Below, one piece after another: positions 1,405 through 45,144 of a DNA stretch of 64,000 nucleotides (the stretch's first letter is position 1; every line of letters begins with the position of its first letter). The stretch spans positions 11,508,858-11,572,857 of the forward strand of contig OU342633.1 of assembly GCA_910589415.1 (NCBI GenBank). Direction: 5' to 3'. The notes beneath the pieces are model-generated. The model was not told where the DNA came from, ran no database searches, and saw nothing but the letters and a program-made list of their open reading frames with translations. The stretch is from Malachius bipustulatus (taxonomy: Eukaryota; Arthropoda; Insecta; Coleoptera; Melyridae). The translations under genes were made by a program, and so were the position numbers.

Positions 1405-2134
1405 CGATCTCCTATCAATTTTTAATAACCCAGGCGACATAGGCGAACGCGAACCAATGTCAGACATTGATTTTGAGGAAGAGCTAGATAAGCTAGCAAA
1501 GCAAAAGGAAACGACAAAACCAAAAGTTAAAATTTTGGCAGACATACAGTTAGCACCTCCAACGAGAGACATACCACTAGTTCCCGAAAATCCCTTAATA
1601 GAGGATTTAGACCCAGACGTTAGTCAGCACACGCAAGCTGAAAACGTAAATGCGACTTTACCAATCACAGAAAAACCTCTTAATTATTATAAAAAACAAT
1701 TTATTTTCAACTTTGGACATTACGCATCCTCCCGAAAATATTCACCTTTCGGAAAAAAGGTTTACGAACCTTTACGAACACCTAGCCCAAATTAAAAATA
1801 CGAATTTCGATAATTCTGTTAAATTCGTCTATACCAATCTAGTATTGAAAGACGTTACGGAGGCTGAAGGTCAAAAAACGTTATTAGCGCAGTGTCATAA
1901 CACGGATCACCGTGGAGCCCAAGAACTTGCTAAGGTAATTAATAAAAATTATTACTGGCCAAGTATGGCGTATGATTGTCAAAACTATGTAGACAATTGT
2001 AATACGTGTCAACAAGCCAAGTATGAAAGACACCCCGTGAAATACAAACTGAAGCTAACACCCTCTTCTAAACAACCCTTTGAGCTTGTGTACATGGACA
2101 TTTTCTCAGTTAGGAACAAAAAATATTTGACAGC
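1405..2134 (+). pseudogene. pol: pol fragment: RNase H-integrase linker and integrase N-terminus
   Basis: An acidic linker (about 1457-1650) leads to the integrase zinc-binding module, with the H-H pair in HNTDHRG (about 1893-1913) and the C-C pair in CNTCQ (about 2000). The first catalytic aspartate of the core lies in VYMDIFSV near 2091. The coding sequence stops being integrase exactly where the PolB element is inserted (GACAGC, 2129-2134). It resumes at 18854, so the target was a coding exon of an integrase. Confidence 0.85.
2129..2134. repeat. Left 6-bp target-site duplication GACAGC
   Basis: GACAGC directly precedes the inserted element and recurs at 18848-18853 directly after it. Counting one copy restores the integrase reading across the junction, so this is a true duplication. 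Six base pairs is the length known for Polinton/Maverick integration. Confidence 0.9.
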
Positions 2135-3126
2135 AGTAGATATACTATGAGAGTTCTGGGCCAAAAACGCGTGTATTTTCTTATGGAGCTTCATATTAGC
2201 GAAAACGTACCAAAAGTCTCTACTGCGCATGCGCGAACTTTAATAAATTTGCAATGAGGAGTCTATACTGGAATGATTTACTGCGCATATGTTAATGATT
2301 GTATGTCTACACTGCTATCATCAATACAACTGCGAGGTTTGCAAGCTCGTCTGACCGATGTATTTAAGCAGTGTGTATAATCCTTCGTAAAGAATATTTA
2401 AGGTTATTATGGAAAATACAGTTGAAACTCCAAGGATGCTACCGCCAGTAATTTATAGCTATTAAGCCCCTCGGAATTCAATGGCGCTACTCAGAGACCC
2501 GAGGTAGGTAGCTGCAGAGCAAGGGCAGGTCGACCGTTAAGTATTTTAAGCCGATACGGCCCCTCGGAATTCAAAAGGCGCTACACAGAGGCCCGAGGTA
2601 AACGGCTTTCCTCAAATGGGAAATTCCATGATCACACCAGTGTCAGTAGATTTCTGTCGAAATATATAGGCGTCGAATGTCACTATGGACCGAGCGCCAC
2701 AGCCATATCGGTTATACGACTGCCCGACACATTTTGGAATGATTTCTAGGAATGACCTGCCACTTCAACCGTGTTAAAAAGGAATGTAGGTTATGGAAAG
2801 TAGATCACTTAGCATTACCCAGGGTGCACCACGAGGAGGCGATCTACATTTACACCCCACAGTAAACAAAAATACAGTATACTACTAATAACTATTTATT
2901 CAATATAAATTATATACATAAGTCAAATGAGCATACAAGATGCGATAAGAATGATTAACTCAGAATACAATAGAAAAATACAAACGTATACAAACTATTC
3001 ATCAATACAGTAAACCTACTTACTAATAACTATTTTTTATATAATATTAATTTTATACATAACGTAAATCGATATACAAGAAGATGTGATATAAGAATAT
3101 TAGGATACAATATAAAATTACAAATG
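2135..3126. other. Left terminal noncoding segment of the PolB element
   Basis: This 1-kb outer segment lies between the terminus and the 3' end of PolB. I see no coding potential. It contains a pair of related G+C-rich motifs (2465-2512 and 2568-2606) built around CCCCTCGGAATTCA and ending CCCGAGGTA, and a direct duplication next to the gene (about 2880-3010 against 3010-3125: ACTACTAATAACTATTTATT, ATACATA and CAATA runs). Polyadenylation-like AATAAA-type sequences on the minus strand are plausible but not proven. Confidence 0.6.
2465..2606. repeat. Paired CCTCGG...CCGAGG motifs near the left terminus
   Basis: Two imperfect copies about 104 bp apart share CCCCTCGGAATTCA, GGCGCTAC, CAGAG and CCCGAGGTA. 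Each unit has dyad character, because CCTCGG at one side answers CCGAGG at the other. The mirrored copies are at 18377-18517. They stand out from the AT-rich surroundings and could be binding sites for replication or integration proteins. That function is inference. Confidence 0.6.
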
Positions 3127-6100
3127 TTAACAAGTTTTTCTTAGTTTATCGGGTATGACATCAACATTATCATTTTTTCTTTTGCGGGTAGGATTCTGAG
3201 TAGATGTCCTAATAGAATAGTGACCCCAAGGTAGTGTATCATAGCTCCCATTTACTAGGTATCTTTTATTATCATGGGGACTCAAGGCAATTTTGATATT
3301 AGTGATGCTAGACACTTGATGCTTCTCACTTTTGATTAGCCTTTGCTCAACGGACTTCTCAGTTTCATCACGCAAGCACACCAGATAATCATCAAAAGAG
3401 ATTCGATTTTTAACTATATGATTCTTCACTCCCTTAGCCTTTTTAACGTGGTCAAGCCCATCAACTCTGATAGCATACATTTTCGATCTCAAGCCAACAA
3501 ATTCAGTCATTATTTTGCCATTCATTTCATCTTTCATTAGACCCAGCACTTTCTTATTGACTTGTGGAATGTTATAAATATTATCTCTGGGATAATCACT
3601 AGTATCAAATTTATCATGACAATCACGCTGAATAATATCATAGATATTGGGGCAGTCTATCAAGTAAATAATGGAATCTGTATCTGTGTAAGCAGCTCTA
3701 CACTTATCAGCAAACAAGGCCTTCATGTAATCATAGTGGAACTCATAAATTTTAGTTTTTGATATATCCAATATACTCATTCCTACATAAATTGGTTTGT
3801 TAAAATGGATATCAGTTTTGTTAAGTTCAATGGCGACCAAACTCTCATCAAAAATTATGCTATTTTTAAACTCTGGCTTAGCAATCAAAGCTTCAGCCCC
3901 ATAGCGGCCCTGCCATTTTGTAACCAGTTTCACAACGCTATGTTTACGTATATTTTCCATCGTCTTGCCAAAAACGGCGTTGTTCATTAACTTAAATAAA
4001 TTCTTTTCAAATTCGTTAGTGGCAGCAGTTCTTAGCTTAGTGTTGAGATCGATGTACGTCTTGAGCCACGGGGATTGCTTGAATTCCAACAAGCAATGTA
4101 TTTTCTTTAATTTTAACCCATGAGCTAGGGCTTGTTTTAAAGTGCGGTAGTGTATAACATACCGTGCTTTATCATACAACGTAGCTAAAAGCTTTTTCTC
4201 CTTAGAACCTGGTGCAGATCGATGTTCAGGACAGAAGGGAATATCAGCATGCATATCATGCAAACTCATAGGATATTCCAAGTCCACCTCAAGAATATAC
4301 CCCTTATCAGCATCATCATCAATACTCATAACATCAAAATTTTCAGGGTTCACCCAGTTAAACTCGCCATAAGGTAGATATTGTGACATAGCCCAACCAT
4401 ATTGATTATTAATATCAAAATAAGTAAGATATTTACTAATCTCAGCCGTATTATAATCTGGCATATATTTGTTGTTAGATTTGGCATATCTAAGAGAGCA
4501 TTGGCTGAGGCCTCCCCGAATCCCACGTTCCACAAGCATCAACTTATCAATATCAGTCAATAATTCAAGAGTGATGTCAGTATGCTTCAACATACAATCC
4601 CAAGTATACCCAGGTAATGTAAAATAATGAGCAGGATCAAGCTTATAAATGCTTAAGCAGCTCCGACGAAATTGCTCGAATACATCAGCAAGTAACATAA
4701 CATCAGTCTTGAGATATAAGTCCGAGTATTCTCCGAGATTTTTACAATTAAATGCATTCCACACATGCAGAGCATGAGCATAATCCTCATCAGTTATATT
4801 GTTATCATTGAGCTTGTTATAAAAAACGGCTTTATCAGGAAGCTGTACCTCATTGAATTTATCATAACAATCAAAGTAGTCATAGGGATAGACTCCTTTT
4901 CTTGTTAATAATTTCAAATTTGGCGTGTTAAGGAACTGTGATGAGAGTTCGGGAAATTCCTTCAAATATGATGCCAGAGTATCTAAACCGGAAGCCATGA
5001 AGCGAAAGGAGTCGATAAATCGAAATTTTATCATGTTTTCATCGAGATGTTTAGTGAATGATATATATTTTTCTTTATTAATTGGTAAAACATTAACTCG
5101 TCCAGCTATATCAGCAGCTAAGTTTTTAATAATGAAATGAGAGTCATACCCGCTTAAGTTATGGAACACAATAGGTATGGTGTGAGTGTCTTGAAAATTG
5201 ATGTTGCAGGCCTCGTGCGCTGGTCCTCGAAAATTAGTTTTACCACCCATGTTATTATTTCCAGAAGCCAAGTGAAAATGATCTCGTACCTTTTTATCTT
5301 CAGAAGTGAAAGGTTTCTCACATATATAGCAGTGTGTAGCATTATCATAGTACGATTGCTCATCTAAAGTGAGCGGATCTATGGGAATGGGGCACAGAAA
5401 GACTGTTTCCAAATCTTCGGCGAAATTCTTGAGCTCATTTGTAAACCAGCATATGCAATCTTTGCCGCGGTATGATCGGTAGAAAGATAATGAGTCATCA
5501 TATGAACACTTCACATAATATGCAATGCTACATGGTTGATGCTTCTGATATTTATTCTTGACATCGCATGGCTCTAGCAGGCACTCCAGGTCAGCATAGA
5601 CGATGAATGGGGTCCTTATTTTGTTCTTGAAGTTTTTAAACTGAACATATTTATTTTCTTCAGTGGGCAAAGTTATTTTACAGTCGTTCATTTTGATGCA
5701 GTCATCATAATGCTTATCTCTGCCAGATTCAGTATGAAAGTAGTGTAGACAACGGTCACAGAAGTACTTCATACCATTATGCTTATTTAGCTGTGTTGAC
5801 AATAAGCGAGATAGATTTTTCACCCAAACATAATGATAGGTTGGAGTCACCTCACAATCTTCATTATACTGATCTGGAAAAAGTAGCAAATTCACATGCT
5901 TCACTCTTCTGTTTTTAGTTAGGAAAGAAGGCTCAACAGTGTAACTTTTCCTAATCTTCTTCAGAATGTAAACATTGATGGATATATCATTCTGTTTCTC
6001 AAACCGAGGAATTTGATTTGAGGTCATCGGGAACTGAAGTCCGGTTAAGTTCAAAACTTTGCTTGGATGAGGATACTTTGATCTGCGTTGTGTATGATCC

Positions 6101-6879
6101 TCGGCAGGGTAGATAGCTGAAACTACTGACCACGCAAAGCACATATTATCATCATTACGCACATTAACACACGCATGCTTCTTCTGAACTAGAGGTGGAA
6201 GCTCTATATATGATGATCCCAGTTGTGGTGTGAATTTGTTTATATTGACTTGCAAATTTATTATTCTCGACAAAGCCCACCCGCTGTCTCTTTCCTGGAA
6301 GTCGTCAAGATCATTCAAGAGAGGCTGCTGAATGTTAACATTGAACCACTTCAACAAATCATCACCTCGATGTATTGGAATATTTCTCGTATTGAGATAC
6401 TTCAAGTCATATATTTGTTCATCATTTTTTCTAACAGTGAATTCACCGCAGAATACAGTATTCACTTTAATGAAGTCATTTTTCTTAAGTTCACCCGAAA
6501 TTCTTCTCTTGAAGATCACAGCCACATCATCCAGAAATTTATTAGGGTCAACATGTTTCAAGTTCGTAATAACACCAGTCCTAATGCGACTATTGAATGC
6601 AGCATCGGAGTCCTCCCACCTCACTCGATCTCTAGCTGTCACCTTTCTAGGTTTATAACCAGCTCCAACTTTCTTAAGATTATTATACAGAGTCTTGAAA
6701 CTCTTCACTTGCCCGATAGCTGTAAGCAGTTTCTGCTTTTCACCAACACCAACGGCTTTACTTAATAAATAAGTAAAACTACGAATAGTTTGAACACATT
6801 TTTTTAATCCGGAAACTATATCAGGGTTATTACTGAAGAGGTCAGCCTTAATTTCCTTAACAATTGATGCGGGAACCAT
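3127..6879 (-). CDS. Family-B DNA polymerase (Polinton type), left-arm copy
   Basis: This encodes a DNA polymerase of the protein-primed family-B type (DNA_pol_B_2), about 1250 residues from the ATG at 6877-6879. The frame is open seven codons further upstream but without an ATG. Domains in order: an N-terminal region with an NMCFAWS motif (about 250); a C2H2 zinc-finger-like element (CDRCLHYFH, about 375); exonuclease motif I YADLEC (about 425); an endonuclease-VII/HNH-like insertion (CYIC, VRDHFH, AHEACN, about 515-560); Exo II HNLSGYDSHFI (about 572); Exo III YLKTDVMLLADVF (about 722); polymerase motif A FDINNQYGW (about 820); motif B KLMNNAVFGK (about 962); motif C YTDTDS (about 1062). 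All key acidic residues are present. The translation appears identical to the right-arm copy. It points outward, towards the terminus. Confidence 0.9.
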   Translation of the reverse strand: MVPASIVKEIKADLFSNNPDIVSGLKKCVQTIRSFTYLLSKAVGVGEKQKLLTAIGQVKSFKTLYNNLKKVGAGYKPRKVTARDRVRWEDSDAAFNSRIRTGVITNLKHVDPNKFLDDVAVIFKRRISGELKKNDFIKVNTVFCGEFTVRKNDEQIYDLKYLNTRNIPIHRGDDLLKWFNVNIQQPLLNDLDDFQERDSGWALSRIINLQVNINKFTPQLGSSYIELPPLVQKKHACVNVRNDDNMCFAWSVVSAIYPAEDHTQRRSKYPHPSKVLNLTGLQFPMTSNQIPRFEKQNDISINVYILKKIRKSYTVEPSFLTKNRRVKHVNLLLFPDQYNEDCEVTPTYHYVWVKNLSRLLSTQLNKHNGMKYFCDRCLHYFHTESGRDKHYDDCIKMNDCKITLPTEENKYVQFKNFKNKIRTPFIVYADLECLLEPCDVKNKYQKHQPCSIAYYVKCSYDDSLSFYRSYRGKDCICWFTNELKNFAEDLETVFLCPIPIDPLTLDEQSYYDNATHCYICEKPFTSEDKKVRDHFHLASGNNNMGGKTNFRGPAHEACNINFQDTHTIPIVFHNLSGYDSHFIIKNLAADIAGRVNVLPINKEKYISFTKHLDENMIKFRFIDSFRFMASGLDTLASYLKEFPELSSQFLNTPNLKLLTRKGVYPYDYFDCYDKFNEVQLPDKAVFYNKLNDNNITDEDYAHALHVWNAFNCKNLGEYSDLYLKTDVMLLADVFEQFRRSCLSIYKLDPAHYFTLPGYTWDCMLKHTDITLELLTDIDKLMLVERGIRGGLSQCSLRYAKSNNKYMPDYNTAEISKYLTYFDINNQYGWAMSQYLPYGEFNWVNPENFDVMSIDDDADKGYILEVDLEYPMSLHDMHADIPFCPEHRSAPGSKEKKLLATLYDKARYVIHYRTLKQALAHGLKLKKIHCLLEFKQSPWLKTYIDLNTKLRTAATNEFEKNLFKLMNNAVFGKTMENIRKHSVVKLVTKWQGRYGAEALIAKPEFKNSIIFDESLVAIELNKTDIHFNKPIYVGMSILDISKTKIYEFHYDYMKALFADKCRAAYTDTDSIIYLIDCPNIYDIIQRDCHDKFDTSDYPRDNIYNIPQVNKKVLGLMKDEMNGKIMTEFVGLRSKMYAIRVDGLDHVKKAKGVKNHIVKNRISFDDYLVCLRDETEKSVEQRLIKSEKHQVSSITNIKIALSPHDNKRYLVNGSYDTLPWGHYSIRTSTQNPTRKRKNDNVDVIPDKLRKTC

Positions 6880-7389
6880 TGTTGCTGAGTATGTCTGCAC
6901 ACCTCAAGAACTGCTACTGAAAATTGTGCTCTTGAGAACTTAGTAAAGTATTTATTTATTATGCTCTAGCCTTGGAACTGGATGATGGCAGCAGGTGACA
7001 GATGTAATCTTACAGCAACAGGTAAGATCTGTAAAAAATGATTAAAACTTGTAATGAAATGCGATAAAATACCTCCCTGTCACCCAAATATAATTAGGAT
7101 TATCATAACAACATAAAAATTCCATGCCCAAGAACCACCCCTTCTATACATAAACTAGCGTAGCCATAATCATTTAATTAAAATAATTTTATACATTTTT
7201 ATTTTATTTTTTACATTAAAACTAAAAACATTCTAACATACCTACTATAGATCATGACTACGCAATCATAAGAAAGCCCAAGCACAATAAATATACGCTA
7301 ATCTAGTCTGCAGATATATAAAATATCAACCCTCTATCACAACACTAACAAATTAATATTAAAAAATACACTAAAATATCTCAAATTAA
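6880..7389. other. PolB upstream region, left arm
   Basis: This is AT-rich noncoding sequence directly upstream of the left PolB start, mirrored at 13593-14102. The start context (AGCAACAATGG on the coding strand) is favourable for eukaryotic initiation. A promoter must lie here if the gene is expressed, but I cannot identify one. Confidence 0.4.
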
Positions 7390-10380
7390 TTTTATCACGT
7401 TTATTAACCAGATCGGTCACCGGTTGACCGGTACCGGTAAAAGCAAAAGCAGGCTAAATATTCCAAGTCCAATAAAAAAATCGAAACAGACCATTTATCT
7501 CAAAACCGGTTCACGTTAGCGGAAAAAATAAATCGAAAAAATACCCCCCCCCCCTCCCCGTAACCCCGGTCAAATTTACAGTTTCTCAAAAGATGACTAT
7601 TTAAATAAGTAGGTATTTTCTTACTCTACTACATATAAGTATTTTTACCCTATAATAACTTCTCATATTAATGGTAATTACAAGTATAATCAGAAAAATG
7701 AATGTCGAGTTATTATTTTTAACCAAAATTCATCATGTAAAAAAAGCAAAAAGCATCAGCCTCATAAAACTATTTTCCCTCCAAATTAAATAGGCAATTC
7801 GGATCTATTTTCCATAAGAATACATAAGAATTTCACGTCATTACTAGTATTCGAAGCAATAGTATGTAGATTTTCTAAGTCCAATAAAAAAAATCACAAA
7901 AGACCATTTATCTCAAAAACGGTCCACTTTAGCGAAAAAATAAATCGAAAAATCTCCCCTTCTAAATCCCTTGTCTGCTTTTAATTATCTTAAGGACATG
8001 AGCCTATGCACAACCCTCTACCCTATATATTTCTACCCTTCAACCACCCTACATATCGGATAAAAATCATGAATTTTTTGTTTTAATCAGGTATTATTCA
8101 GGAAAACGACGCCAATTATTATCATCAGACAAAGCCGTTATGCTAGAGAAAAAAAAAATCAACCCCCCTAAAATATTCACCGCACCCATAGAACTAGCAA
8201 TAAAAATGTCGGTACTCACCACCAAGTATAGTTTCAAACTACACTGAATTTAACAACAGGATTAAGCACTGCGACAAACGAAAATAGCTTCAAAATAACG
8301 AAACTTCAAAATAACTGAATCGATTTCAACTCGAACCCTTCTATATACCCTCGAGCAGAACCGAATATAGAACGAAAGTGGTGATTTATCAAAAAGACTC
8401 CTTGAAACATGCAAGATGTACCTATTTCCCATAAGAATACATACAATTCACTCCATCGGTAGTATCTGAAGCAAAAAGTAAGTAAATTTTCCAAGTCCGA
8501 CAAAAAAATCACAAAAGGCCATTTATCTCAAAAACGGCTCACTTTAGCGAAAAAATAAATCGAAAAATCTCCCCATTAGCTTATACCCCTTGTCTTCTTT
8601 TCATTAACTTAACAACATGGGCCTATGCACAACCCTCAACCCTAAATATTTCTACCCTTCAACCGCCCCTCATATCAGATAAAAATCATGAATTATTGTT
8701 CATATAATCAGGTATTTTTCATAAAAAAAGACTCTACTTATTATTATCAGATAAGGTACGTATGTTAAAGAAATTTAAAAAATATATCAACCCCTAAAAT
8801 ATTCACCATACCTCCCTAAAACTAGCAATAAAAACGATTTATCAAAAGATATCATACTTATTGCCGATAAGGATGCATGCTGTTTACTCTAAAAGATATT
8901 TACTTGATGTCTGAAACCAAAGTAACAAAATTTTCTAAGTCCAATAAAAAAATTCACAAAAGACCAAATATCTCAAAAACGGCTCACTTTAGCGAAAAAA
9001 TAAATCGAAAAATCTCCCCATGAGCTTATACCCCTTGTCTGATTTTTAATTTCTTAACAACATGGGCCTATGCACAACCCTCTAGCTTCTATATTTCTAC
9101 CCTTCAACCACCCCTCATATCGGTTAAAAAGAATTAATTTTTTTGTTATCAAGGTATTTTTCAGAAAAAAGACGCCAATTACTATCATCAAGCGAACTAT
9201 TTATGCTAGAGAAGTTAAAAAAAAAAAAAATCAACCCCCTAAAAATATTTACCTCACCCAGATAGAACTAGCAATAAAAATATCGGTACTCACCACCAAT
9301 TATAGTTTCAAACTACACAGAATTTAACAACAGGATTAAGCACTGCGCCAAACGAAAATAGCTTCAAAATAGCTAAACTTCAAAATAACTGAATCGATTT
9401 CAACTCGAACCCTTCTATATATACCCTCGAGCAGAACCGAATATAGAACGAAAGTGGTGATTTATCAAAAAGACTCCTTGAAACGTGCAAGATGTACCTA
9501 TTTCCCATAAGAATACATACAATTCACTCCATCGGTAGTATCAGAAGCAAAAAGTATGTAGATTTTCTAAGTCCAATAAAAAAATTCACAAAAGGTCATT
9601 TATCTCAAAAACGGTCCACTTTAGCGAAAAAATAAATCGAAAAATCTCCCCATGAGCTTATACCCCTTGTCTGCTTTTAACTTTCTTAACAACATGAGCC
9701 GATGCGCAACCCTCTACCATACACATTTCTACCCTTCAACCACCCCTCATATCAGATGAAAATCTCTTTTTTTGCTATGATCAGATATTTTTTCAGAAAA
9801 AGAAAAACTTATTATCATGATGCAAAAGGTCCGTATGTTGGAGGAATTTAAAAATATATACCAACCCCTAAAATATTCGCCACACCCCCCTAAAACTACC
9901 AATAAAATAATACATACTTACCACCAATAGTTTTGAGCTACACAGGAATTAAACAACAGATTAGGTCGGTACTTTACTATATGAAAACTACAAAATAACT
10001 GAATCGCTGTCGACTCGGACCCTTCCATATATACCCTTGAGCAGCACCGAATTTATACGTAAAGTAGCGATTTATCAAAAAGACTCCTTGAAACGTGCAA
10101 GATGTACTTATTTCCGACAATAATACGATAATATTATTATTAAACTAAAAGATATTTACATAATAATATCTGAAGCAAAAGTAAAATTTTTTCTAAGTCC
10201 AATAAAAAAATTCACAAAAGACCAAATATCTCAAAAACGGCTCACTTTAGCGAAAAAATAAATCGAAAAATCTCCCCATGAGCTTATACCCCTTGTCTGA
10301 TTTTTAATTTCTTAACAACATGGGCCTATACACAACCCTCAACTCGAAATATTTCTACCCTCAAACAACCCCATCAACTG
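7390..10380. repeat. Left long-period repeat array in PolB upstream region
   Basis: A degenerate unit recurs six times. Its most conserved core is TTTAGCGAAAAAATAAATCG followed by AAAAATCTCCCC. Core positions (AGCG) are about 7518, 7931, 8546, 8991, 9623 and 10249, so spacings are about 413, 615, 445, 632 and 626 bp. Each core is preceded by CCAATAAAAAAA and ATCTCAAAAACGG and followed by CCCCTTGTCT, CAACCCTC and TTTCTACCCT. I see no credible gene inside it. The short ORF at 9070-9327 is built from the repeat. The right-arm array has only four cores. Confidence 0.85.
8991..10248. repeat. Extra 1.26-kb unit present only in the left arm
   Basis: Flanks at about 8925-9070 and 10180-10325 are near-identical direct repeats about 1258 bp apart. 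The right arm jumps from the equivalent of the first to the equivalent of the second. Deletion in the right arm, or gain in the left arm, by unequal recombination between these repeats explains the arm-length difference. Confidence 0.8.
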
Positions 10381-10693
10381 TAATATATGCAAAGATTTCA
10401 ACTACGAATGCATGTAATGGGAAAGGAGTGAGAGAATAATAATTACTCCCAATCAAATTTTATGGCACAAAAAAAACATGATACATCACCCCTAAAACCA
10501 TCATACACTTCTTATAACGATCGATACATATTAAATCGATTTTTATATGAGAATGTACAGGTAGCGATACGAACAGCATTATAAAATCGTGAAGTTGAAA
10601 TATTTCAAAACAACAGCTAAGTTTATGGCAAAATAAGAGTCAAATTTTTTGGGCGAATAACCATCTGCTATTTAAAATTCAAAAACAAACCTG

Positions 10694-10770
10694 CCCCACC
10701 GGTATAACCGGTTAGACCAGTATAACCGGTTAGACCTGTCCTAAAACCGGTTAGACCGGTCTAACCGGTA
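10694..10770. repeat. ACCGGTTAGACCGGT short repeats, left arm
   Basis: About five tandem, partly palindromic units of the form ACCGGTTAGACC or ACCGGTATAACC lie about 350 bp from the centre of symmetry. Mirrored copies are at 11468-11545. A related group (CACCGGTTGACCGGTACCGG) occurs near 7421-7440 and its mirror near 13543-13562. They could be protein-binding sites. No function is shown. Confidence 0.75.
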
Positions 10771-11106
10771 AAAAAATAAAAAATAAAAAATTTAGCTAAA
10801 CCCGCGTATCATTAGAAAATGTACATCAAACCAATACTTTTGCCATAATCGCGGTATTAGACAAATAAGAAAATGAATTATGCAAGTTTGGAAAAATAAT
10901 TGTAGTTTTTTAAAACGTAAAAATTAAAAAATACCCACTTACCCCGATAAAACAACCACTGAAGCTAGAAACTATTGGACTATTGGAGAACAGATAACAA
11001 GGGACTCATTACGACGACTGAGGTAATACACGGTATCAACGTCGCTTAAAATTATTTATTCGTTTCATCAAGATTCGACAGGTCGCGGTGTTCCGTGAGG
11101 ATTTTG

Positions 11107-11131
11107 CGACCGGTCAGTGCTCCATTATTAC
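11107..11131. other. Central spacer (loop) of the palindrome
   Basis: This unpaired segment of about 25 nt (GACCGGTCAGTGCTCCATTA and a few bases) separates arms that match immediately on both sides (GACAGGTCGCGG at 11077-11088 against CCGCGACCTGTC at 11149-11160). The short spacer is what a fold-back or template-switch replication event would leave. It itself contains the 8-bp palindrome ACCGGT-like core seen elsewhere in the array. Confidence 0.75.
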
Positions 11132-11467
11132 GCAATCCTCACGGGACACCGCGACCTGTCGAATCTTGATGAAACGAATAAATAATTTTAAGCGACGTTG
11201 ATACCGTGTATTACCTCAGTCGTCGTAATGAGTCCCTTGTTATCTGTTCTCCAATAGTCCAATAGTTTCTAGCTTCAGTGGTTGTTTTATCGGGGTAAGT
11301 GGGTATTTTTTAATTTTTACGTTTTAAAAAACTACAATTATTTTTCCAAACTTGCATAATTCATTTTCTTATTTGTCTAATACCGCGATTATGGCAAAAG
11401 TATTGGTTTGATGTACATTTTCTAATGATACGCGAGTTTTAGATAAATTTTTTATTTTTTATTTTTT

Positions 11468-13592
11468 TACCGGTTAGACCGGTCTAACCGGTTTTAGGAC
11501 AGGTCTAACCGGTTATACTGGTCTAACCGGTTATACCGGTGGGGCAGGTTTGTTTTTGAATTTTAAATAGCAGATGGTTATTCGCCCAAAAAATTTGACT
11601 CTTATTTTGCCATAAACTTAGCTGTTGTTTTGAAATATTTCAACTTCACGATTTTATAATGCTGTTCGTATCGCTACCTGTACATTCTCATATAAAAATC
11701 GATTTAATATGTATCGATCGTTATAAGAAGTGTATGATGGTTTTAGGGGTGATGTATCATGTTTTTTTTGTGCCATAAAATTTGATTGGGAGTAATTATT
11801 ATTCTCTCACTCCTTTCCCATTACATGCATTCGTAGTTGAAATCTTTGCATATATTACAGTTGATGGGGTTGTTTGAGGGTAGAAATATTTCGAGTTGAG
11901 GGTTGTGTATAGGCCCATGTTGTTAAGAAATTAAAAATCAGACAAGGGGTATAAGCTCATGGGGAGATTTTTCGATTTATTTTTTCGCTAAAGTGAGCCG
12001 TTTTTGAGATATTTGGTCTTTTGTGATTTTTTTTATTGGACTTAGAAAATTTTGTTACTTTGGTTTCAGACATCAAGTAAATATCTTTTAGAGTAAACAG
12101 CATGCATCCTTATCGGCAATAAGTATGATATCTTTTGATAAATCGTTTTTATTGCTAGTTTTAGGGAGGTATGGTGAATATTTTAGGGGTTGATATATTT
12201 TTTAAATTTCTTTAACATACGTACCTTATCTGATAATAATAAGTAGAGTCTTTTTTTATGAAAAATACCTGATTATATGAACAATAATTCATGATTTTTA
12301 TCTGATATGAGGGGCGGTTGAAGGGTAGAAATATTTAGGGTTGAGGGTTGTGCATAGGCCCATGTTGTTAAGTTAATGAAAAGAAGACAAGGGGTATAAG
12401 CTCATGGGGAGATTTTTCGATTTATTTTTTCGCTAAAGTGAGCCGTTTTTGAGATAAATGGCCTTTTGTGATTTTTTTGTCGGACTTGGAAAATTTACTT
12501 ACTTTTTGCTTCAGATACTACCGATGGAGTGAATTGTATGTATTCTTATGGGAAATAGGTACATCTTGCATGTTTCAAGGAGTCTTTTTGATAAATCACC
12601 ACTTTCGTTCTATATTCGGTTCTGCTCGAGGGTATATAGAAGGGTTCGAGTTGAAATCGATTCAGTTATTTTGAAGTTTCGTTATTTTGAAGCTATTTTC
12701 GTTTGTCGCAGTGCTTAATCCTGTTGTTAAATTCAGTGTAGTTTGAAACTATACTTGGTGGTGAGTACCGACATTTTTATTGCTAGTTCTATGGGTGCGG
12801 TGAATATTTTAGGGGGGTTGATTTTTTTTTTCTCTAGCATAACGGCTTTGTCTGATGATAATAATTGGCGTCGTTTTCCTGAATAATACCTGATTAAAAC
12901 AAAAAATTCATGATTTTTATCCGATATGTAGGGTGGTTGAAGGGTAGAAATATATAGGGTAGAGGGTTGTGCATAGGCTCATGTCCTTAAGATAATTAAA
13001 AGCAGACAAGGGATTTAGAAGGGGAGATTTTTCGATTTATTTTTTCGCTAAAGTGGACCGTTTTTGAGATAAATGGTCTTTTGTGATTTTTTTTATTGGA
13101 CTTAGAAAATCTACATACTATTGCTTCGAATACTAGTAATGACGTGAAATTCTTATGTATTCTTATGGAAAATAGATCCGAATTGCCTATTTAATTTGGA
13201 GGGAAAATAGTTTTATGAGGCTGATGCTTTTTGCTTTTTTTACATGATGAATTTTGGTTAAAAATAATAACTCGACATTCATTTTTCTGATTATACTTGT
13301 AATTACCATTAATATGAGAAGTTATTATAGGGTAAAAATACTTATATGTAGTAGAGTAAGAAAATACCTACTTATTTAAATAGTCATCTTTTGAGAAACT
13401 GTAAATTTGACCGGGGTTACGGGGAGTGGGGGGGGGGGTATTTTTTCGATTTATTTTTTCCGCTAACGTGAACCGGTTTTGAGATAAATGGTCTGTTTCG
13501 ATTTTTTTATTGGACTTGGAATATTTAGCCTGCTTTTGCTTTTACCGGTACCGGTCAACCGGTGACCGATCTGGTTAATAAACGTGATAAAA
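11468..13592. repeat. Right repeat array upstream of PolB
   Basis: This is the mirrored version of the left array, with four conserved cores (CGATTTATTTTTTCGCTAAA) at about 11977, 12433, 13048 and 13466. It includes the CCGGTT repeats at 11468-11545. The 68-residue ORF at 12468-12674 also appears mirrored at 8306-8512. It has no recognisable domain and I treat it as repeat sequence rather than a gene. Confidence 0.8.
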
Positions 13593-14102
13593 TTAATTTG
13601 AGATATTTTAGTGTATTTTTTAATATTAATTTGTTAGTGTTGTGATAGAGGGTTGATATTTTATATATCTGCAGACTAGATTAGCGTATATTTATTGTGC
13701 TTGGGCTTTCTTATGATTGCGTAGTCATGATCTATAGTAGGTATGTTAGAATGTTTTTAGTTTTAATGTAAAAAATAAAATAAAAATGTATAAAATTATT
13801 TTAATTAAATGATTATGGCTACGCTAGTTTATGTATAGAAGGGGTGGTTCTTGGGCATGGAATTTTTATGTTGTTATGATAATCCTAATTATATTTGGGT
13901 GACAGGGAGGTATTTTATCGCATTTCATTACAAGTTTTAATCATTTTTTACAGATCTTACCTGTTGCTGTAAGATTACATCTGTCACCTGCTGCCATCAT
14001 CCAGTTCCAAGGCTAGAGCATAATAAATAAATACTTTACTAAGTTCTCAAGAGCACAATTTTCAGTAGCAGTTCTTGAGGTGTGCAGACATACTCAGCAA
14101 CA
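13593..14102. other. PolB upstream region, right arm
   Basis: This is the mirror of 6880-7389 and holds AT-rich noncoding sequence. A hairpin-like pair, GATCTTACCTGTTGC and GCTGTAAGAT, lies near 13953-13976. I see no core promoter that I would defend. Confidence 0.4.
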
Positions 14103-17100
14103 ATGGTTCCCGCATCAATTGTTAAGGAAATTAAGGCTGACCTCTTCAGTAATAACCCTGATATAGTTTCCGGATTAAAAAAATGTGTTCAAACTATTCG
14201 TAGTTTTACTTATTTATTAAGTAAAGCCGTTGGTGTTGGTGAAAAGCAGAAACTGCTTACAGCTATCGGGCAAGTGAAGAGTTTCAAGACTCTGTATAAT
14301 AATCTTAAGAAAGTTGGAGCTGGTTATAAACCTAGAAAGGTGACAGCTAGAGATCGAGTGAGGTGGGAGGACTCCGATGCTGCATTCAATAGTCGCATTA
14401 GGACTGGTGTTATTACGAACTTGAAACATGTTGACCCTAATAAATTTCTGGATGATGTGGCTGTGATCTTCAAGAGAAGAATTTCGGGTGAACTTAAGAA
14501 AAATGACTTCATTAAAGTGAATACTGTATTCTGCGGTGAATTCACTGTTAGAAAAAATGATGAACAAATATATGACTTGAAGTATCTCAATACGAGAAAT
14601 ATTCCAATACATCGAGGTGATGATTTGTTGAAGTGGTTCAATGTTAACATTCAGCAGCCTCTCTTGAATGATCTTGACGACTTCCAGGAAAGAGACAGCG
14701 GGTGGGCTTTGTCGAGAATAATAAATTTGCAAGTCAATATAAACAAATTCACACCACAACTGGGATCATCATATATAGAGCTTCCACCTCTAGTTCAGAA
14801 GAAGCATGCGTGTGTTAATGTGCGTAATGATGATAATATGTGCTTTGCGTGGTCAGTAGTTTCAGCTATCTACCCTGCCGAGGATCATACACAACGCAGA
14901 TCAAAGTATCCTCATCCAAGCAAAGTTTTGAACTTAACCGGACTTCAGTTCCCGATGACCTCAAATCAAATTCCTCGGTTTGAGAAACAGAATGATATAT
15001 CCATCAATGTTTACATTCTGAAGAAGATTAGGAAAAGTTACACTGTTGAGCCTTCTTTCCTAACTAAAAACAGAAGAGTGAAGCATGTGAATTTGCTACT
15101 TTTTCCAGATCAGTATAATGAAGATTGTGAGGTGACTCCAACCTATCATTATGTTTGGGTGAAAAATCTATCTCGCTTATTGTCAACACAGCTAAATAAG
15201 CATAATGGTATGAAGTACTTCTGTGACCGTTGTCTACACTACTTTCATACTGAATCTGGCAGAGATAAGCATTATGATGACTGCATCAAAATGAACGACT
15301 GTAAAATAACTTTGCCCACTGAAGAAAATAAATATGTTCAGTTTAAAAACTTCAAGAACAAAATAAGGACCCCATTCATCGTCTATGCTGACCTGGAGTG
15401 CCTGCTAGAGCCATGCGATGTCAAGAATAAATATCAGAAGCATCAACCATGTAGCATTGCATATTATGTGAAGTGTTCATATGATGACTCATTATCTTTC
15501 TACCGATCATACCGCGGCAAAGATTGCATATGCTGGTTTACAAATGAGCTCAAGAATTTCGCCGAAGATTTGGAAACAGTCTTTCTGTGCCCCATTCCCA
15601 TAGATCCGCTCACTTTAGATGAGCAATCGTACTATGATAATGCTACACACTGCTATATATGTGAGAAACCTTTCACTTCTGAAGATAAAAAGGTACGAGA
15701 TCATTTTCACTTGGCTTCTGGAAATAATAACATGGGTGGTAAAACTAATTTTCGAGGACCAGCGCACGAGGCCTGCAACATCAATTTTCAAGACACTCAC
15801 ACCATACCTATTGTGTTCCATAACTTAAGCGGGTATGACTCTCATTTCATTATTAAAAACTTAGCTGCTGATATAGCTGGACGAGTTAATGTTTTACCAA
15901 TTAATAAAGAAAAATATATATCATTCACTAAACATCTCGATGAAAACATGATAAAATTTCGATTTATCGACTCCTTTCGCTTCATGGCTTCCGGTTTAGA
16001 TACTCTGGCATCATATTTGAAGGAATTTCCCGAACTCTCATCACAGTTCCTTAACACGCCAAATTTGAAATTATTAACAAGAAAAGGAGTCTATCCCTAT
16101 GACTACTTTGATTGTTATGATAAATTCAATGAGGTACAGCTTCCTGATAAAGCCGTTTTTTATAACAAGCTCAATGATAACAATATAACTGATGAGGATT
16201 ATGCTCATGCTCTGCATGTGTGGAATGCATTTAATTGTAAAAATCTCGGAGAATACTCGGACTTATATCTCAAGACTGATGTTATGTTACTTGCTGATGT
16301 ATTCGAGCAATTTCGTCGGAGCTGCTTAAGCATTTATAAGCTTGATCCTGCTCATTATTTTACATTACCTGGGTATACTTGGGATTGTATGTTGAAGCAT
16401 ACTGACATCACTCTTGAATTATTGACTGATATTGATAAGTTGATGCTTGTGGAACGTGGGATTCGGGGAGGCCTCAGCCAATGCTCTCTTAGATATGCCA
16501 AATCTAACAACAAATATATGCCAGATTATAATACGGCTGAGATTAGTAAATATCTTACTTATTTTGATATTAATAATCAATATGGTTGGGCTATGTCACA
16601 ATATCTACCTTATGGCGAGTTTAACTGGGTGAACCCTGAAAATTTTGATGTTATGAGTATTGATGATGATGCTGATAAGGGGTATATTCTTGAGGTGGAC
16701 TTGGAATATCCTATGAGTTTGCATGATATGCATGCTGATATTCCCTTCTGTCCTGAACATCGATCTGCACCAGGTTCTAAGGAGAAAAAGCTTTTAGCTA
16801 CGTTGTATGATAAAGCACGGTATGTTATACACTACCGCACTTTAAAACAAGCCCTAGCTCATGGGTTAAAATTAAAGAAAATACATTGCTTGTTGGAATT
16901 CAAGCAATCCCCGTGGCTCAAGACGTACATCGATCTCAACACTAAGCTAAGAACTGCTGCCACTAACGAATTTGAAAAGAATTTATTTAAGTTAATGAAC
17001 AACGCCGTTTTTGGCAAGACGATGGAAAATATACGTAAACATAGCGTTGTGAAACTGGTTACAAAATGGCAGGGCCGCTATGGGGCTGAAGCTTTGATTG

Positions 17101-17855
17101 CTAAGCCAGAGTTTAAAAATAGCATAATTTTTGATGAGAGTTTGGTCGCCATTGAACTTAACAAAACTGATATCCATTTTAACAAACCAATTTATGTAGG
17201 AATGAGTATATTGGATATATCAAAAACTAAAATTTATGAGTTCCACTATGATTACATGAAGGCCTTGTTTGCTGATAAGTGTAGAGCTGCTTACACAGAT
17301 ACAGATTCCATTATTTACTTGATAGACTGCCCCAATATCTATGATATTATTCAGCGTGATTGTCATGATAAATTTGATACTAGTGATTATCCCAGAGATA
17401 ATATTTATAACATTCCACAAGTCAATAAGAAAGTGCTGGGTCTAATGAAAGATGAAATGAATGGCAAAATAATGACTGAATTTGTTGGCTTGAGATCGAA
17501 AATGTATGCTATCAGAGTTGATGGGCTTGACCACGTTAAAAAGGCTAAGGGAGTGAAGAATCATATAGTTAAAAATCGAATCTCTTTTGATGATTATCTG
17601 GTGTGCTTGCGTGATGAAACTGAGAAGTCCGTTGAGCAAAGGCTAATCAAAAGTGAGAAGCATCAAGTGTCTAGCATCACTAATATCAAAATTGCCTTGA
17701 GTCCCCATGATAATAAAAGATACCTAGTAAATGGGAGCTATGATACACTACCTTGGGGTCACTATTCTATTAGGACATCTACTCAGAATCCTACCCGCAA
17801 AAGAAAAAATGATAATGTTGATGTCATACCCGATAAACTAAGAAAAACTTGTTAA
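14103..17855 (+). CDS. Family-B DNA polymerase (Polinton type), right-arm copy
   Basis: This is the second copy of the polymerase, translated outward toward the right terminus. I chose the ATG at 14103, although the frame extends to 14082 without ATG. Every 3'-5' exonuclease motif (YADLEC near 15384, GYDSHFI near 15830, YLKTDVMLLADVF near 16266) and polymerase motif (A near 16563, B near 16992, C near 17292) is intact. The zinc finger near 15220 and the endonuclease-VII-like insert near 15646-15790 are also intact. A basic tail ending RKRKNDNVDVIPDKLRK could be a nuclear localisation signal. The length fits Polinton polymerases. Two identical intact copies in one element mean either very recent formation or ongoing arm-to-arm gene conversion. 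Confidence 0.9.
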   Translation: MVPASIVKEIKADLFSNNPDIVSGLKKCVQTIRSFTYLLSKAVGVGEKQKLLTAIGQVKSFKTLYNNLKKVGAGYKPRKVTARDRVRWEDSDAAFNSRIRTGVITNLKHVDPNKFLDDVAVIFKRRISGELKKNDFIKVNTVFCGEFTVRKNDEQIYDLKYLNTRNIPIHRGDDLLKWFNVNIQQPLLNDLDDFQERDSGWALSRIINLQVNINKFTPQLGSSYIELPPLVQKKHACVNVRNDDNMCFAWSVVSAIYPAEDHTQRRSKYPHPSKVLNLTGLQFPMTSNQIPRFEKQNDISINVYILKKIRKSYTVEPSFLTKNRRVKHVNLLLFPDQYNEDCEVTPTYHYVWVKNLSRLLSTQLNKHNGMKYFCDRCLHYFHTESGRDKHYDDCIKMNDCKITLPTEENKYVQFKNFKNKIRTPFIVYADLECLLEPCDVKNKYQKHQPCSIAYYVKCSYDDSLSFYRSYRGKDCICWFTNELKNFAEDLETVFLCPIPIDPLTLDEQSYYDNATHCYICEKPFTSEDKKVRDHFHLASGNNNMGGKTNFRGPAHEACNINFQDTHTIPIVFHNLSGYDSHFIIKNLAADIAGRVNVLPINKEKYISFTKHLDENMIKFRFIDSFRFMASGLDTLASYLKEFPELSSQFLNTPNLKLLTRKGVYPYDYFDCYDKFNEVQLPDKAVFYNKLNDNNITDEDYAHALHVWNAFNCKNLGEYSDLYLKTDVMLLADVFEQFRRSCLSIYKLDPAHYFTLPGYTWDCMLKHTDITLELLTDIDKLMLVERGIRGGLSQCSLRYAKSNNKYMPDYNTAEISKYLTYFDINNQYGWAMSQYLPYGEFNWVNPENFDVMSIDDDADKGYILEVDLEYPMSLHDMHADIPFCPEHRSAPGSKEKKLLATLYDKARYVIHYRTLKQALAHGLKLKKIHCLLEFKQSPWLKTYIDLNTKLRTAATNEFEKNLFKLMNNAVFGKTMENIRKHSVVKLVTKWQGRYGAEALIAKPEFKNSIIFDESLVAIELNKTDIHFNKPIYVGMSILDISKTKIYEFHYDYMKALFADKCRAAYTDTDSIIYLIDCPNIYDIIQRDCHDKFDTSDYPRDNIYNIPQVNKKVLGLMKDEMNGKIMTEFVGLRSKMYAIRVDGLDHVKKAKGVKNHIVKNRISFDDYLVCLRDETEKSVEQRLIKSEKHQVSSITNIKIALSPHDNKRYLVNGSYDTLPWGHYSIRTSTQNPTRKRKNDNVDVIPDKLRKTC

Positions 17856-18847
17856 CATTTGTAATTTTATATTGTATCCTAATATTCTTATATCACATCT
17901 TCTTGTATATCGATTTACGTTATGTATAAAATTAATATTATATAAAAAATAGTTATTAGTAAGTAGGTTTACTGTATTGATGAATAGTTTGTATACGTTT
18001 GTATTTTTCTATTGTATTCTGAGTTAATCATTCTTATCGCATCTTGTATGTTCATTTGACTTATGTATATAATTTATATTGAATAAATAGTTATTAGTAG
18101 TATACTGTATTTTTGTTTACTGTGGGGTGTAAATGTAGATCGCCTCCTCGTGGTGCACCCTGGGTAATGCTAAGTGATCTACTTTCCATAACCTACATTC
18201 CTTTTTAACACGGTTGAAGTGGCAGGTCATTCCTAGAAATCATTCCAAAATGTGTCGGGCAGTCGTATAACCGATATGGCTGTGGCGCTCGGTCCATAGT
18301 GACATTCGACGCCTATATATTTCGACAGAAATCTACTGACACTGGTGTGATCATGGAATTTCCCATTTGAGGAAAGCCGTTTACCTCGGGCCTCTGTGTA
18401 GCGCCTTTTGAATTCCGAGGGGCCGTATCGGCTTAAAATACTTAACGGTCGACCTGCCCTTGCTCTGCAGCTACCTACCTCGGGTCTCTGAGTAGCGCCA
18501 TTGAATTCCGAGGGGCTTAATAGCTATAAATTACTGGCGGTAGCATCCTTGGAGTTTCAACTGTATTTTCCATAATAACCTTAAATATTCTTTACGAAGG
18601 ATTATACACACTGCTTAAATACATCGGTCAGACGAGCTTGCAAACCTCGCAGTTGTATTGATGATAGCAGTCTAGACATACAATCATTAACATATGCGCA
18701 GTAAATCATTCCAGTATAGACTCCTCATTGCAAATTTATTAAAGTTCGCGCATGCGCAGTAGAGACTTTTGGTACGTTTTCGCTAATATGAAGCTCCATA
18801 AGAAAATACACGCGTTTTTGGCCCAGAACTCTCATAGTATATCTACT
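17856..18847. other. Right terminal noncoding segment of the PolB element
   Basis: This is the mirror of 2135-3126, containing the paired CCTCGG/CCGAGG motifs at 18377-18517 and the terminus ending ATATCTACT at 18847. It probably holds the polymerase 3' UTR. No further gene is visible. Confidence 0.6.
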
Positions 18848-18853
18848 GACAGC
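18848..18853. repeat. Right 6-bp target-site duplication GACAGC
   Basis: This is an exact copy of 2129-2134 on the far side of the palindromic element. Integrase coding sequence resumes immediately after it. Confidence 0.9.
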
Positions 18854-19466
18854 GATTGACTCCTTCACCAGGTACGTCATGTATGAGCCACTAGCTTCCC
18901 TAAACGCTGTGGACATTGCAGAGTCATATGTTAATATGTTTGCCAAGATAAAAATGCCCAAAACATTGATAACCGATAACCAATTTGACGTAAATCTATT
19001 TAAAGATTTGCTAAAAATACATGGAGTGACACATCACCTAATTACCCCGAAACATCCTAATAGCAATAGCCCCATAGAAAGAGCGCACGGTACGCTAATC
19101 GAAATCATGAGAACCATAACAACCTCGCAGAATAAACTTTTGAACTTGAATCTTTTCAAAAATGCAGTCGTAATTTATAACCGAACGATTCATAGTCAAA
19201 CCAATTATAAACCGATCGAACTTTTATTTGGTCACATGGAAACCGATGACATACTTGATGTTTTCGATCAGACATTCTATTATGAATATACCTGCGAACT
19301 GTTCAGGAAAATCAAAGCTTTATACGAGAGCGTGCATAACCAGGAATTGGAAAGTAAACAAAAACGCTTAGAGTATGAAAATAAAAGACGCTCAGATTTT
19401 CAACAAATCGATCCGGAAAAAAACAGTTTACCTCAAGGACACGCAAAGATCAAAGGTAACACCTAA
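18854..19466 (+). pseudogene. pol: pol fragment: integrase catalytic core and C-terminus
   Basis: This continues the errantivirus-like integrase after the PolB insertion. The second catalytic aspartate is in LITDNQFD (near 18970). The catalytic glutamate is in SPIERAHGTL (near 19070). The C-terminal part resembles the Gypsy integrase tail (YNRTIHSQTNYKPIELLFG). The frame closes at 19464-19466. The three core catalytic residues survive in sequence but are separated by 16.7 kb, so no integrase is made. Confidence 0.85.
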
Positions 19467-22340: not shown

Positions 22341-22358
22341 TAAGAAGTTTTGTTGCAG
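22341..22358 (+). promoter_or_regulatory. Probable splice acceptor before env
   Basis: A T-rich stretch ending TTTGTTGCAG lies directly before two ATG codons that begin the env frame. Errantivirus env is known to be expressed from a spliced subgenomic RNA, so this is the expected position. The matching donor is outside the window. Confidence 0.5.
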
Positions 22359-24066
22359 ATGATGCCAATTATACTGACGTTACTTTTGGTAATCACAATC
22401 ACCACCACCCACGCCGAACGCATCGAAATAAAAAGTTTAAGGAACAACCCAGGTATTCTACCATTACGATTAGGTTTAGCTAGAACGGAGAAAACACATC
22501 ATACTTTCGTTCATAATTACCCTCTATCGGAAATTCGAAATCAAGTTAATAAATTAGACAATGTAATCTCTAAATTAGGAGAAAAACTAATACCAACCAT
22601 CGACGACGCTGACGAATGGGAACAGGTTGAAATACTTCAAATCCACGAATTAAGAACTGAGACTGATCACCTCAAATCTCAAATTCGCTTGATTCACCCT
22701 AACGCCCTAAACATACCTAGCAACCGAACTAAGAGAGGCCTGGTTAACTTCTTAGGTTCAGTATTCAAATTTATTTCCGGAAACCTTGACGCGGAAGACG
22801 GAGAAAAATACGATACAGCCATAAGGACTTTAACGGAAAACCAAGATAACCTAATTAAAAACTATAACAAACAAATATCTATCAACACCAGATTAATTCT
22901 AGACTTTAACGATATCATGAAAAATGTGTCAAATAACTTTGATGAAATCGAACGAACAATCAAACAGTTTGACGAAACCTACTTACTTATCACGCGCGTT
23001 AATAATTTAAAGACAAATCTGATAACCTTAAAAGAGGTAATTAATAACATTCATACAGCAATCAATTTTGCATCACTTGGATTATTACACATGAGCGTAA
23101 TAAGCGAAGAACAAATAAACGAAATGAAATTAGAAATTCAAAAATTCCACGGAGATGAATATTACTATTCCGACGAGAATGTACTTTTCTTAAGAACAAT
23201 TAGAGTAGGTAGAGTATTATATTACCCCGGAACATGTAGTCTTTTTACTCCACGTACCGATCTTAGATCCCAAGGTATATCACCTATATCACCTTTACTC
23301 TATTCCGACTTCGAATTCGACTATCATAATTCCACCAACGTCCTATGTAGCGATGACCGAAGATTCCATTTATTATTTAAAACATAAGTGCCACTACTTG
23401 CAACAACAATATCATTGTCCCCTGAAATTAGTAGAAAGGAACTTTCAACAAGATACGTGTATAGGAAATTTGTTAAATGTTTACAAAGCACCGACATGTA
23501 AACACATCCCGGTAACAATTACAGATACCCTGGTAGAAACGATCAGTGATCAAAAATACCTAGTTATATTACCAACCGAAACTATAGTACACGAAAAATG
23601 CGAAAATGAGGAGGTACATAAATTAATAGGCACCTACCTAATTAATGTCCCATACTCATGTTCCTTCAAGACAAAGGATTTTACCTACATAAATTTAGAA
23701 GGCACGCTTAAAGAAGAACCTGTATACTTGCCACCAATTGACGAGAACGTAGCAAGCGTGAAACCGATTCATCTAAATTTGAAGGCAATAAACTTAGACC
23801 AATTGTCAAAATTAACTCTCCAAACTTTAGAACCCACGGTAACTGTACCAATACATAAGTCAGCATTATTTCATTCTGGAATGACTTTAGTGATAACGGC
23901 CTTAGTAATTATAGCAGTATCCTCTACGATAATCTATATAAAAAGAGACGCTATAATCGATTTTATTAATAAAAATAGGAATAAAACTTACACTGACCAA
24001 ATAACCCAATCAGACTTAGAGAGCCTTCACGAAGAAGCCTTCCCGGCTCCAAAACCCCGACATTGA
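22359..24066 (+). pseudogene. env: F-type envelope protein gene, frameshifted
   Basis: The product resembles the envelope protein of insect errantiviruses, which belongs to the baculovirus F fusion-protein family. An N-terminal signal peptide (about residues 1-20, PIILTLLLVITITTTHA) is followed by a surface part. A dibasic cleavage site RTKR lies near 22727-22738, with a hydrophobic glycine-containing segment directly behind it. Coiled-coil-rich sequence follows. The frame breaks near 23353-23387. Cysteine-rich sequence continues in the other frame to a membrane anchor near 23877-23945 (GMTLVITALVIIAVSS) and a short cytoplasmic tail. The break is visible, so this copy cannot make an intact envelope. 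Family assignment rests on the cleavage-site context and layout. Confidence 0.8.
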
Positions 24067-33345: not shown

Positions 33346-33360
33346 CCCCCCTCACTTCGC
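33346..33360 (-). promoter_or_regulatory. Polypurine tract of element B
   Basis: On the minus strand GCGAAGTGAGGGGGG directly precedes the 3' LTR. This is the plus-strand primer site of LTR retroelements. Confidence 0.75.
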
Positions 33361-33530
33361 AAAAACAAAAGACGCAGTCTTTTGTTTCAGACGGTTACCC
33401 CCCTTTTTTACGGAAATGACACTGTCGGCTCGTCTCCTTCCATCGGGGCGGACGGACCTACGAAAACGGCGGCGTCAGATTTATCAGCACATTACAGAAT
33501 TCGGACGGATCGGGGAGAAAGGGTTCGGTA

Positions 33531-36812: not shown

Positions 36813-36850
36813 ACGGACGCTCGGGGCGAGTTCACGGTCGGTTGGCGTCG

Positions 36851-38170: not shown

Positions 38171-38553
38171 TCTGAACCAGGCAGCCACGCTTCTCTGTAG
38201 CGGACGGTCTAGTGTTGGAGCTTTTTATTTAAGCGGTGGCGATTCGGCGACGCTGCGACGACGGTACGGCGGCGAGACGGCGATGACACGGCGACGAGAC
38301 GGCGGGATAACGACCTGCTTATCGTTACCTGTTCCTATTGCTAGAAATTGCACTAACTCGCTAGACACCTATACGGGAATCGGACAAAAATGCACCTAAG
38401 CTATACCTACGGTGAGTCGTAACCTATATCTCGGTATTCAGAAATATTTCAGAGCAAAAAAAAATATATACAACACGGAACAAAACGCAAGAAATTTTAC
38501 CACCAAAAACTATACAAACGGGAAAGTTCTAGAACCTGGAACTTAGAAACAAG

Positions 38554-38571: not shown

Positions 38572-38575
38572 AATT

Positions 38576-40829: not shown

Positions 40830-40833
40830 AAAT

Positions 40834-45137: not shown

Positions 45138-45144
45138 AAAATTA

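Follow-up and report, generated by a model that had tools for sequence, protein, structure and literature searches.

A family of palindromic elements with a PolB of Polinton/adintovirus type in the genome of the beetle Malachius bipustulatus

Little is known directly about how the genomes of Polintons and adintoviruses are replicated. The gene set of Polintons/Mavericks as set out in PMC4028283 includes an RVE integrase, the account of adintoviruses in PMC11071296 names PolB, a hexon and an rve integrase as their genes, and an (AGT)2 end motif together with 6-bp duplications is among the features reported for Mavericks (PMC8097293). Here we describe an element from a 64,000-nucleotide stretch of the M. 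bipustulatus genome (contig OU342633.1, in the following C4, positions 11508858-11572857; this whole stretch is called the window). The element occupies window positions 2135-18847 and is an inverted repeat with the hexamer GACAGC on each side and a PolB gene in each arm. PolB is the only one of the three adintovirus genes that it was found to carry, and the RVE integrase of Polintons was not found in it either. We consider it, with a probability of roughly 60%, to be an integrated inverted dimer of a stripped-down replicon of adintovirus/Polinton type, which would be made by fold-back copying, inserted by an integrase supplied in trans and represented in the genome by a family. In the assembly searched (544 Mb in 52 contigs), palindromes with the same ends are flanked by different 6-bp target-site duplications (TSDs), PolB has been conserved by selection between three of the copies, and the two arms of young copies are nearly identical.

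An earlier note, made from the window sequence alone, had described the ends of the element as exact mirror images and the whole element as one inverted repeat. The first description holds for the outermost 175 bp of both ends and fails for the arms overall, the alignment of which revealed 21 events in total. Eleven of them are axial mismatches, located at 11104-11118 and at the partner positions as far as 11132, and those outside the axis are 7 substitutions and indels of 2, 1 and 1258 bp. Between the outer arms (2134-9117 and 11862-18848), identity is 99.76% over 6988 aligned columns. The second description is correct in that the arms pair up to the axis, which lies at 11118 (self-inverted block 10145-12091) as against a midpoint of 10491; it has to be qualified for the right arm, from which the 1258 bp, approximately two units of degenerate tandem repeats, are absent. 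The 29 nucleotides 11104-11132 form a loop at the axis, where the tip folds as a long stem. A chance origin was rejected because the inverted repeat is 7 kb long at 99.8% identity. The 5'-AG start and the 6-bp duplication noted earlier are both present, the 5' end AGTAGA matching (AGT)2 at five of six positions.

The proposal that the element was inserted as a unit into an integrase gene was borne out. When the insert and one TSD copy are removed, a single frame of 365 amino acids (aa) spans the insertion site, with an integrase zinc finger in its left half and a match to the rve core in its right half (27.7 bits, under the Pfam cut-off of 32.6). The target is therefore a Ty3/gypsy element. 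Its reverse transcriptase/RNase H lies upstream, and Baculo_F-type envelope frames lie downstream.

Further copies were sought with terminal positions 243-706 as the query (best 40 of 168 candidates scored), and 33 of the 41 matches reached at least 300 bits, the next score being 142 bits. The stretches examined cover 27 of these 33 places, the remainder being five near contig ends and one on C16. Other queries were the terminal 1 kb (best 40 of 194 candidates scored) and PolB as DNA (38 of 38) and as protein (best 37 of 168). The copies form three sets, one with PolB (A), one without it (B) and one of minis. Set A comprises, besides the window element, the gapless copy C1:81078653-81096468 (arms 99.96% identical over 8095 bp, TSD CCTGTA), an old palindrome at C3:57.78M, a solo arm at C1:697962 which extends slightly past the axis and then ends, a single arm before a gap at C7:1.21M, and fragments. 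Two more A arms, at C6:7.25M and C14:22.86M, are 99.975% identical over 8119 bp, and each stops at an assembly gap. Since their outer flanks have GAAATT in common, they are probably the two parts of a single element that the assembly has divided, and their position on separate scaffolds is probably due to a scaffolding misjoin or to a translocation through the palindrome. Set B includes C7:9044081-9072382 (TSD CTCGAT, arms 99.3-99.8% identical), with a 14.5-kb Ty3-type long terminal repeat (LTR) element nested in one arm, and C3:27790745-27798976 (TSD CTCTCC), with one arm shortened. Minis with TSDs were found at C4:34.30M (TAAGTA), C7:14.13M (TCCTTT) and C17:10.85M (AAAGTT; this one holds extra inner copies of the end), and there are shorter ones besides.

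Intact ends with a perfect 6-bp duplication were present in 8 of the 12 two-ended copies judged (C6/C14 counted as one), and the eight duplications, i.e. GACAGC of the window and the seven hexamers given above, are all different. Such loci had been predicted by the earlier note, and multiple independent insertions with TSDs of their own support the mobility of the element in its palindromic form. A fold-over of an ordinary element during chromosome repair, after its insertion, is a very improbable origin. Inverted repeats near a break can indeed steer its repair, according to PMC6103520, but several independent insertions of the same form contradict this origin, and the window element lies between unique flanks, with the duplication at either end and with exact termini. 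We give even less credit to an assembly artefact from fold-back reads. Repeats of this kind do trouble assembly, as is seen from C6:7.25M, C14:22.86M and C7:1.21M, which break at gaps within an arm. The window element and C1:81.08M are, however, gapless and have differing flanks and TSDs, the differences between their arms include indels of 1258 bp and of about 386 bp, and in the old copy the arms have diverged from each other.

Small inverted copies of the terminus were also observed about 0.3-28 kb from six contig ends (C13:304-720, C14:3.9k, the right ends of C17 and C6, C3:16-17k and the right end of C7). They have a similar arrangement, as if they had spread with shared subtelomeric duplications; the stretch retrieved among them is that of C13.

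A tree of 10 arms (terminal 5 kb, 5073 columns) grouped the arms by insertion. The two window arms are sisters (support 100/100), as are the C6/C14 arms (100/100). The C1:81.08M arms pair at 96/91 within a recent burst that also holds C1:0.698M and C7:1.21M (branches of at most 0.001), and both arms of C3:57.78M are set apart as a pair from the remaining eight (100/99). For the two B elements, two-state sites grouped the arms by insertion 12 times and by side 0 times, and 17 changes are private to the right arm of C3:27.79M. Halves that were inherited independently should group by side, and the grouping by insertion therefore points to one template per palindrome; to judge from these sequences, each palindrome seems to have been made from one template near the time of insertion. 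Gene conversion keeps the arms of Y-chromosome palindromes alike, and the elements could in the same way be stable two-armed transposons which are copied as duplex and whose arms are homogenized by chromosomal gene conversion between the inverted repeats. The near identity of the arms in young copies would agree with this, and similar arms with different centres could be explained as well. We nevertheless consider it unlikely, as the arms of the old C3:57.78M copy differ from each other (91.8% identity over 622 columns) about as much as from the window element (90.0% and 90.8%), which argues that arms are not kept identical once resident. Diverged arms were also found in L015 (97.6%, 553 columns), L016 (94.0%) and L018 (85.5%, 200 columns), and the right arm of the window element retains its 1258-bp deletion.

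The PolB frame, which is identical in both arms of the window element and is read outwards from the centre in each, has 1258 aa from stop to stop and 1250 aa from the methionine of the MVP start. The earlier note had named PolB as the sole gene; the other frames of at least 150 aa inside the element are one 182-aa antisense frame within each PolB. Among 7977 scored database proteins, 7963 match residues 400-1150. Identities were taken from the best 120 of them; the closest named proteins among the matches listed are from insects, many of them beetles (about 60-67%), and the PolB of a Megastigmus wasp adintovirus is, among the same matches, 56% identical over residues 400-1150. When the protein is aligned with 12 relatives, which include one named adintovirus PolB, the exonuclease and polymerase motif residues are invariant. 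We take these motifs to be Exo I (DxE), Exo II (HNxxxYD), Exo III (YxxLYxxxD), Pol A (DxNNxYG), Pol B (KLMNNAxxGK) and Pol C (YTDTDS), and an invariant C/H cluster to be EndoVII-like. Scans of the protein against Pfam and PHROGs gave no match, PF03175, which is annotated in the database for many of the relatives, being among the families missed, and a sequence search of the PDB gave none. The identification is thus based on homologues and motifs instead of profile matches, and judged by these the enzyme is a PolB of the Polinton/adintovirus type and probably protein-primed.

Three distinct open copies of PolB (window, C1:81.08M and C6/C14), belonging to subfamilies 5-8% apart, gave dS of 0.16-0.24 and dN/dS of 0.12-0.15, which indicates that PolB was kept under purifying selection while the subfamilies diverged. 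Between the arms of one copy there are 0 synonymous changes and 0, 0 and 2 nonsynonymous ones (the 2 in C1:81.08M). In further copies the frames are broken. Among viral contigs, the PolB protein alone found no relative, the PolB alignment found one distant relative (L024) with an rve integrase and an A32-type ATPase, and the exact 22-base end of the palindrome was absent. Six distant matches in other genome contigs were used as comparison subjects only.

Comparison with provirus proteins revealed no integrase or capsid gene in the A and B palindromes examined, and the window element has none among its frames of at least 150 aa. Over the stretches examined, this comparison matched PolB and Ty3/gypsy integrases only. 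Its reach is limited, since L024, although it carries an ATPase gene, was likewise missed by the capsid and ATPase frames. The integrase matches in the window are confined to Ty3/gypsy elements outside the palindrome. Packaging ATPase, protease and capsid are likewise not represented by any frame of at least 150 aa in the palindrome, nor were they detected by the same limited comparison, and scans of the A frame and three B frames gave no transposase domain.

A full Polinton with the same terminus and an integrase, as the earlier note had envisaged, was not found in the stretches examined with any of the four queries. Other PolB loci are present in the genome, 26 among the 41 matches listed for the protein query, one with 59%, eight with 50-53% and 17 with 42-47% identity; the sequence of two of these was retrieved and one was examined in full. 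The latter, C4:11307932-11324111, is a complete adintovirus-like provirus of 16.2 kb with the TSD AACTGC and terminal inverted repeats (TIRs) of 407 bp (99.75% identical). It encodes PolB, a double jelly-roll capsid protein (in two adjoining frames), a phospholipase A2-like protein, an A32-type ATPase and an rve integrase. The Pfam domain Endonuclease_7 scored above the cut-off in its PolB and below it in L024. The end of the provirus, AGTAGTTAAAC, and that of the palindrome, AGTAGATATAC, are both close to the Maverick (AGT)2 motif, and adintovirus-like proviruses such as this one are plausible donors of the integrase. At C14:9854919-9858587 (L037/L038) there is an open PolB frame of 1295 aa without stops (59%), with a decayed terminus about 8 kb off and no match to the provirus proteins other than PolB; it is possibly a domesticated gene or an old relative.

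The A and B elements have the terminal 702-706 bp in common with a sharp boundary, and in this part B is 96.5% identical to the window element (707 columns) and 99.1% to C1:81.08M. Beyond the terminus, the window element and B have only two internal-repeat matches of 40-42 bases. This pattern would also be expected if the A and B palindromes were endogenized from a multipartite virus, bidnavirus-like or Vesanto-like, whose segments share terminal repeats; the possible number of segments in Vesanto virus is put at up to twelve in PMC8363768, and their terminal repeats are similar. We regard such an origin as improbable: whole-length palindromes are not part of that description of Vesanto virus as far as it goes, a test of limited sensitivity detected no capsid gene in either A or B, and the relative examined in the genome is a single provirus.

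For the inverted-dimer reading we propose the following course. In an extrachromosomal state, the replicon would be copied by the PolB that it encodes, starting at the AGTAG end and probably by protein priming. The growing strand may fold back on itself at the axis or close to it, or a hairpin may be present there in the replicon, and the second arm would then be copied from the first, giving a double-length palindrome with two identical ends. An rve integrase acting in trans, most simply from an adintovirus-like provirus, would insert the palindrome with a 6-bp duplication, and palindromes that have these ends and no PolB would be mobilized as satellites by the same enzymes. The axis loop fits fold-back copying, and so do minis built as 1..x + y..1, for example L012 (positions 1-1318, with an insertion, joined to 648-1). 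We infer, in agreement with the earlier note, that the replicon is self-replicating but integrase-dependent. More tentatively, and with rather less confidence than in the dimer itself, the element could be a 'hairpin transposon', i.e. a one-armed extrachromosomal hairpin with its own PolB which is dimerized in each cycle, borrows its integrase from resident adintoviruses and has PolB-less satellites. Its arms would then never diverge while the element is active, and it would be a two-tier parasite of an endogenous virus.

Several points weigh against the fold-back origin and the borrowed integrase. The extrachromosomal form is a proposal based on the assembled genome sequence, and the minis could also be obtained by internal deletion of a palindrome. 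The identity of the helper is a guess, since a provirus with the same terminus was not found; the ends of the C4 provirus and the palindrome are alike at 9 of 11 positions over a length chosen after looking, and their TIRs are alike only at the tip. Both arms extend over at least about 2 kb in only 6 insertions, C6/C14 among them joined by inference, and at C3:27.79M the left arm differs from its right partner by 19 substitutions but from the C7 element by only 12 and 14. The flanks of L018 carry an 8-bp repeat and no 6-bp TSD, L020 has TTTACA beside an end that is missing its first 5 bases, and two of the 12 two-ended copies, C3:57.78M and C1:1.47M, gave no TSD verdict. All that the B elements encode is a 232-aa orphan frame, for which no homologue was found. 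Finally, the axis sequence and the central repeats differ among the window element, C1:81.08M and C6/C14, which speaks against a conserved fixed hairpin and fits independent fold-back points.

If integrated dimers are what we see, the family is a genomic record of how this type of PolB copies DNA, and it suggests that snapback genomes could become heritable transposons in their own right. It also makes the helper relation testable, and the divergence of the arms could date insertions, much as that of LTRs does.

The features of the element and its target are given in Table 1. The rest of the window is rich in retroelements. A non-LTR retrotransposon frame (endonuclease and reverse transcriptase, 19563-22280) lies between the gypsy integrase and the envelope gene of Baculo_F type, which is split over two overlapping frames (22344-24066). 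Nested Ty3/gypsy-type elements occupy 30148-46869. They include direct repeats (31088-33345 and 38571-40829, 99.9% identical) with gag and pol frames in GC-rich DNA, and pieces flanking these repeats recur at 45145-46869 with a second, broken gag/pol set. An open BEL/Pao-type polyprotein frame of 1729 aa (47423-52612) is bracketed by repeats at 47077-47229 and 53211-53365 (91.7% identical).

Table 1. Features of the palindromic element and its insertion site (window positions)
Feature	Position	Strand	Basis
Target: 5' part of Ty3/gypsy integrase frame (H2C2 zinc finger)	1650..2134	+	
Target-site duplication, left copy, GACAGC	2129..2134	.	flank comparison
Left arm, about 8.97 kb	2135..11103	+	self-alignment, arm alignment
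Terminal ~706 bp, common to PolB-less B-type palindromes	2135..2840	+	A/B comparison
PolB frame, left arm, read from centre to left end; MVP methionine at about 6879	3127..6903	-	
Degenerate tandem repeats, left arm	7441..10376	.	self-comparison
Axis, 29-nt loop, tip of long stem	11104..11132	.	arm alignment, folding
Right arm, about 7.7 kb, 1258 bp shorter than left	11133..18847	-	self-alignment, arm alignment
Degenerate tandem repeats, right arm	11862..13541	.	self-comparison
PolB frame, right arm, identical to left one	14079..17855	+	frames, arm alignment
Terminal ~706 bp, right end	18142..18847	-	A/B comparison
Target-site duplication, right copy, GACAGC	18848..18853	.	flank comparison
Target: 3' part of that integrase frame (rve match)	18854..19466	+	

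The palindrome shares with Polintons and adintoviruses the PolB motifs, the 5'-AGT end, the 6-bp duplication and terminal inverted repeats, and a full example of such an element is present in the same genome. It differs from them in having PolB twice and an inverted repeat that spans the whole element. By gene content it is neither a Polinton nor an adintovirus, because integrase, ATPase and capsid genes were sought in it and not found, and the same is true of protease. By analogy, it may work like a snapback or hairpin derivative of one of these. To our knowledge, neither adeno-associated virus (AAV) nor Foldback/Galileo encodes a DNA polymerase. Foldback/Galileo elements are described with a P-element-type transposase, whereas no transposase domain was found in the frames scanned here. 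A derivative of the protein-primed yeast plasmid pGKL1 reportedly occurs as a perfect hairpin and its inverted dimer; plasmids of this type are cytoplasmic in yeast and are not known to integrate. Hairpin linear plasmids are covered by a review (PMC4443254) which cites Kikuchi et al. (1985). The snapback genomes of AAV are a documented analogue: as described in PMC8235507, they are self-complementary subgenomes in which one end is followed by its mirror copy, either in symmetric form or asymmetric with a loop, and arise from either genome end. The palindrome differs from them in its own polymerase gene and in forming a chromosomal family with TSDs. The earlier note knew of no standard class with this layout, and no palindromic or long-inverted-repeat Polinton was found described in the literature among the titles listed; the AAV snapback genomes and the hairpin linear plasmids are nevertheless precedents. 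The snapback type of layout is thus known elsewhere, and we rate the family of integrated palindromes bearing PolB as a new form of Polinton/adintovirus-type element.

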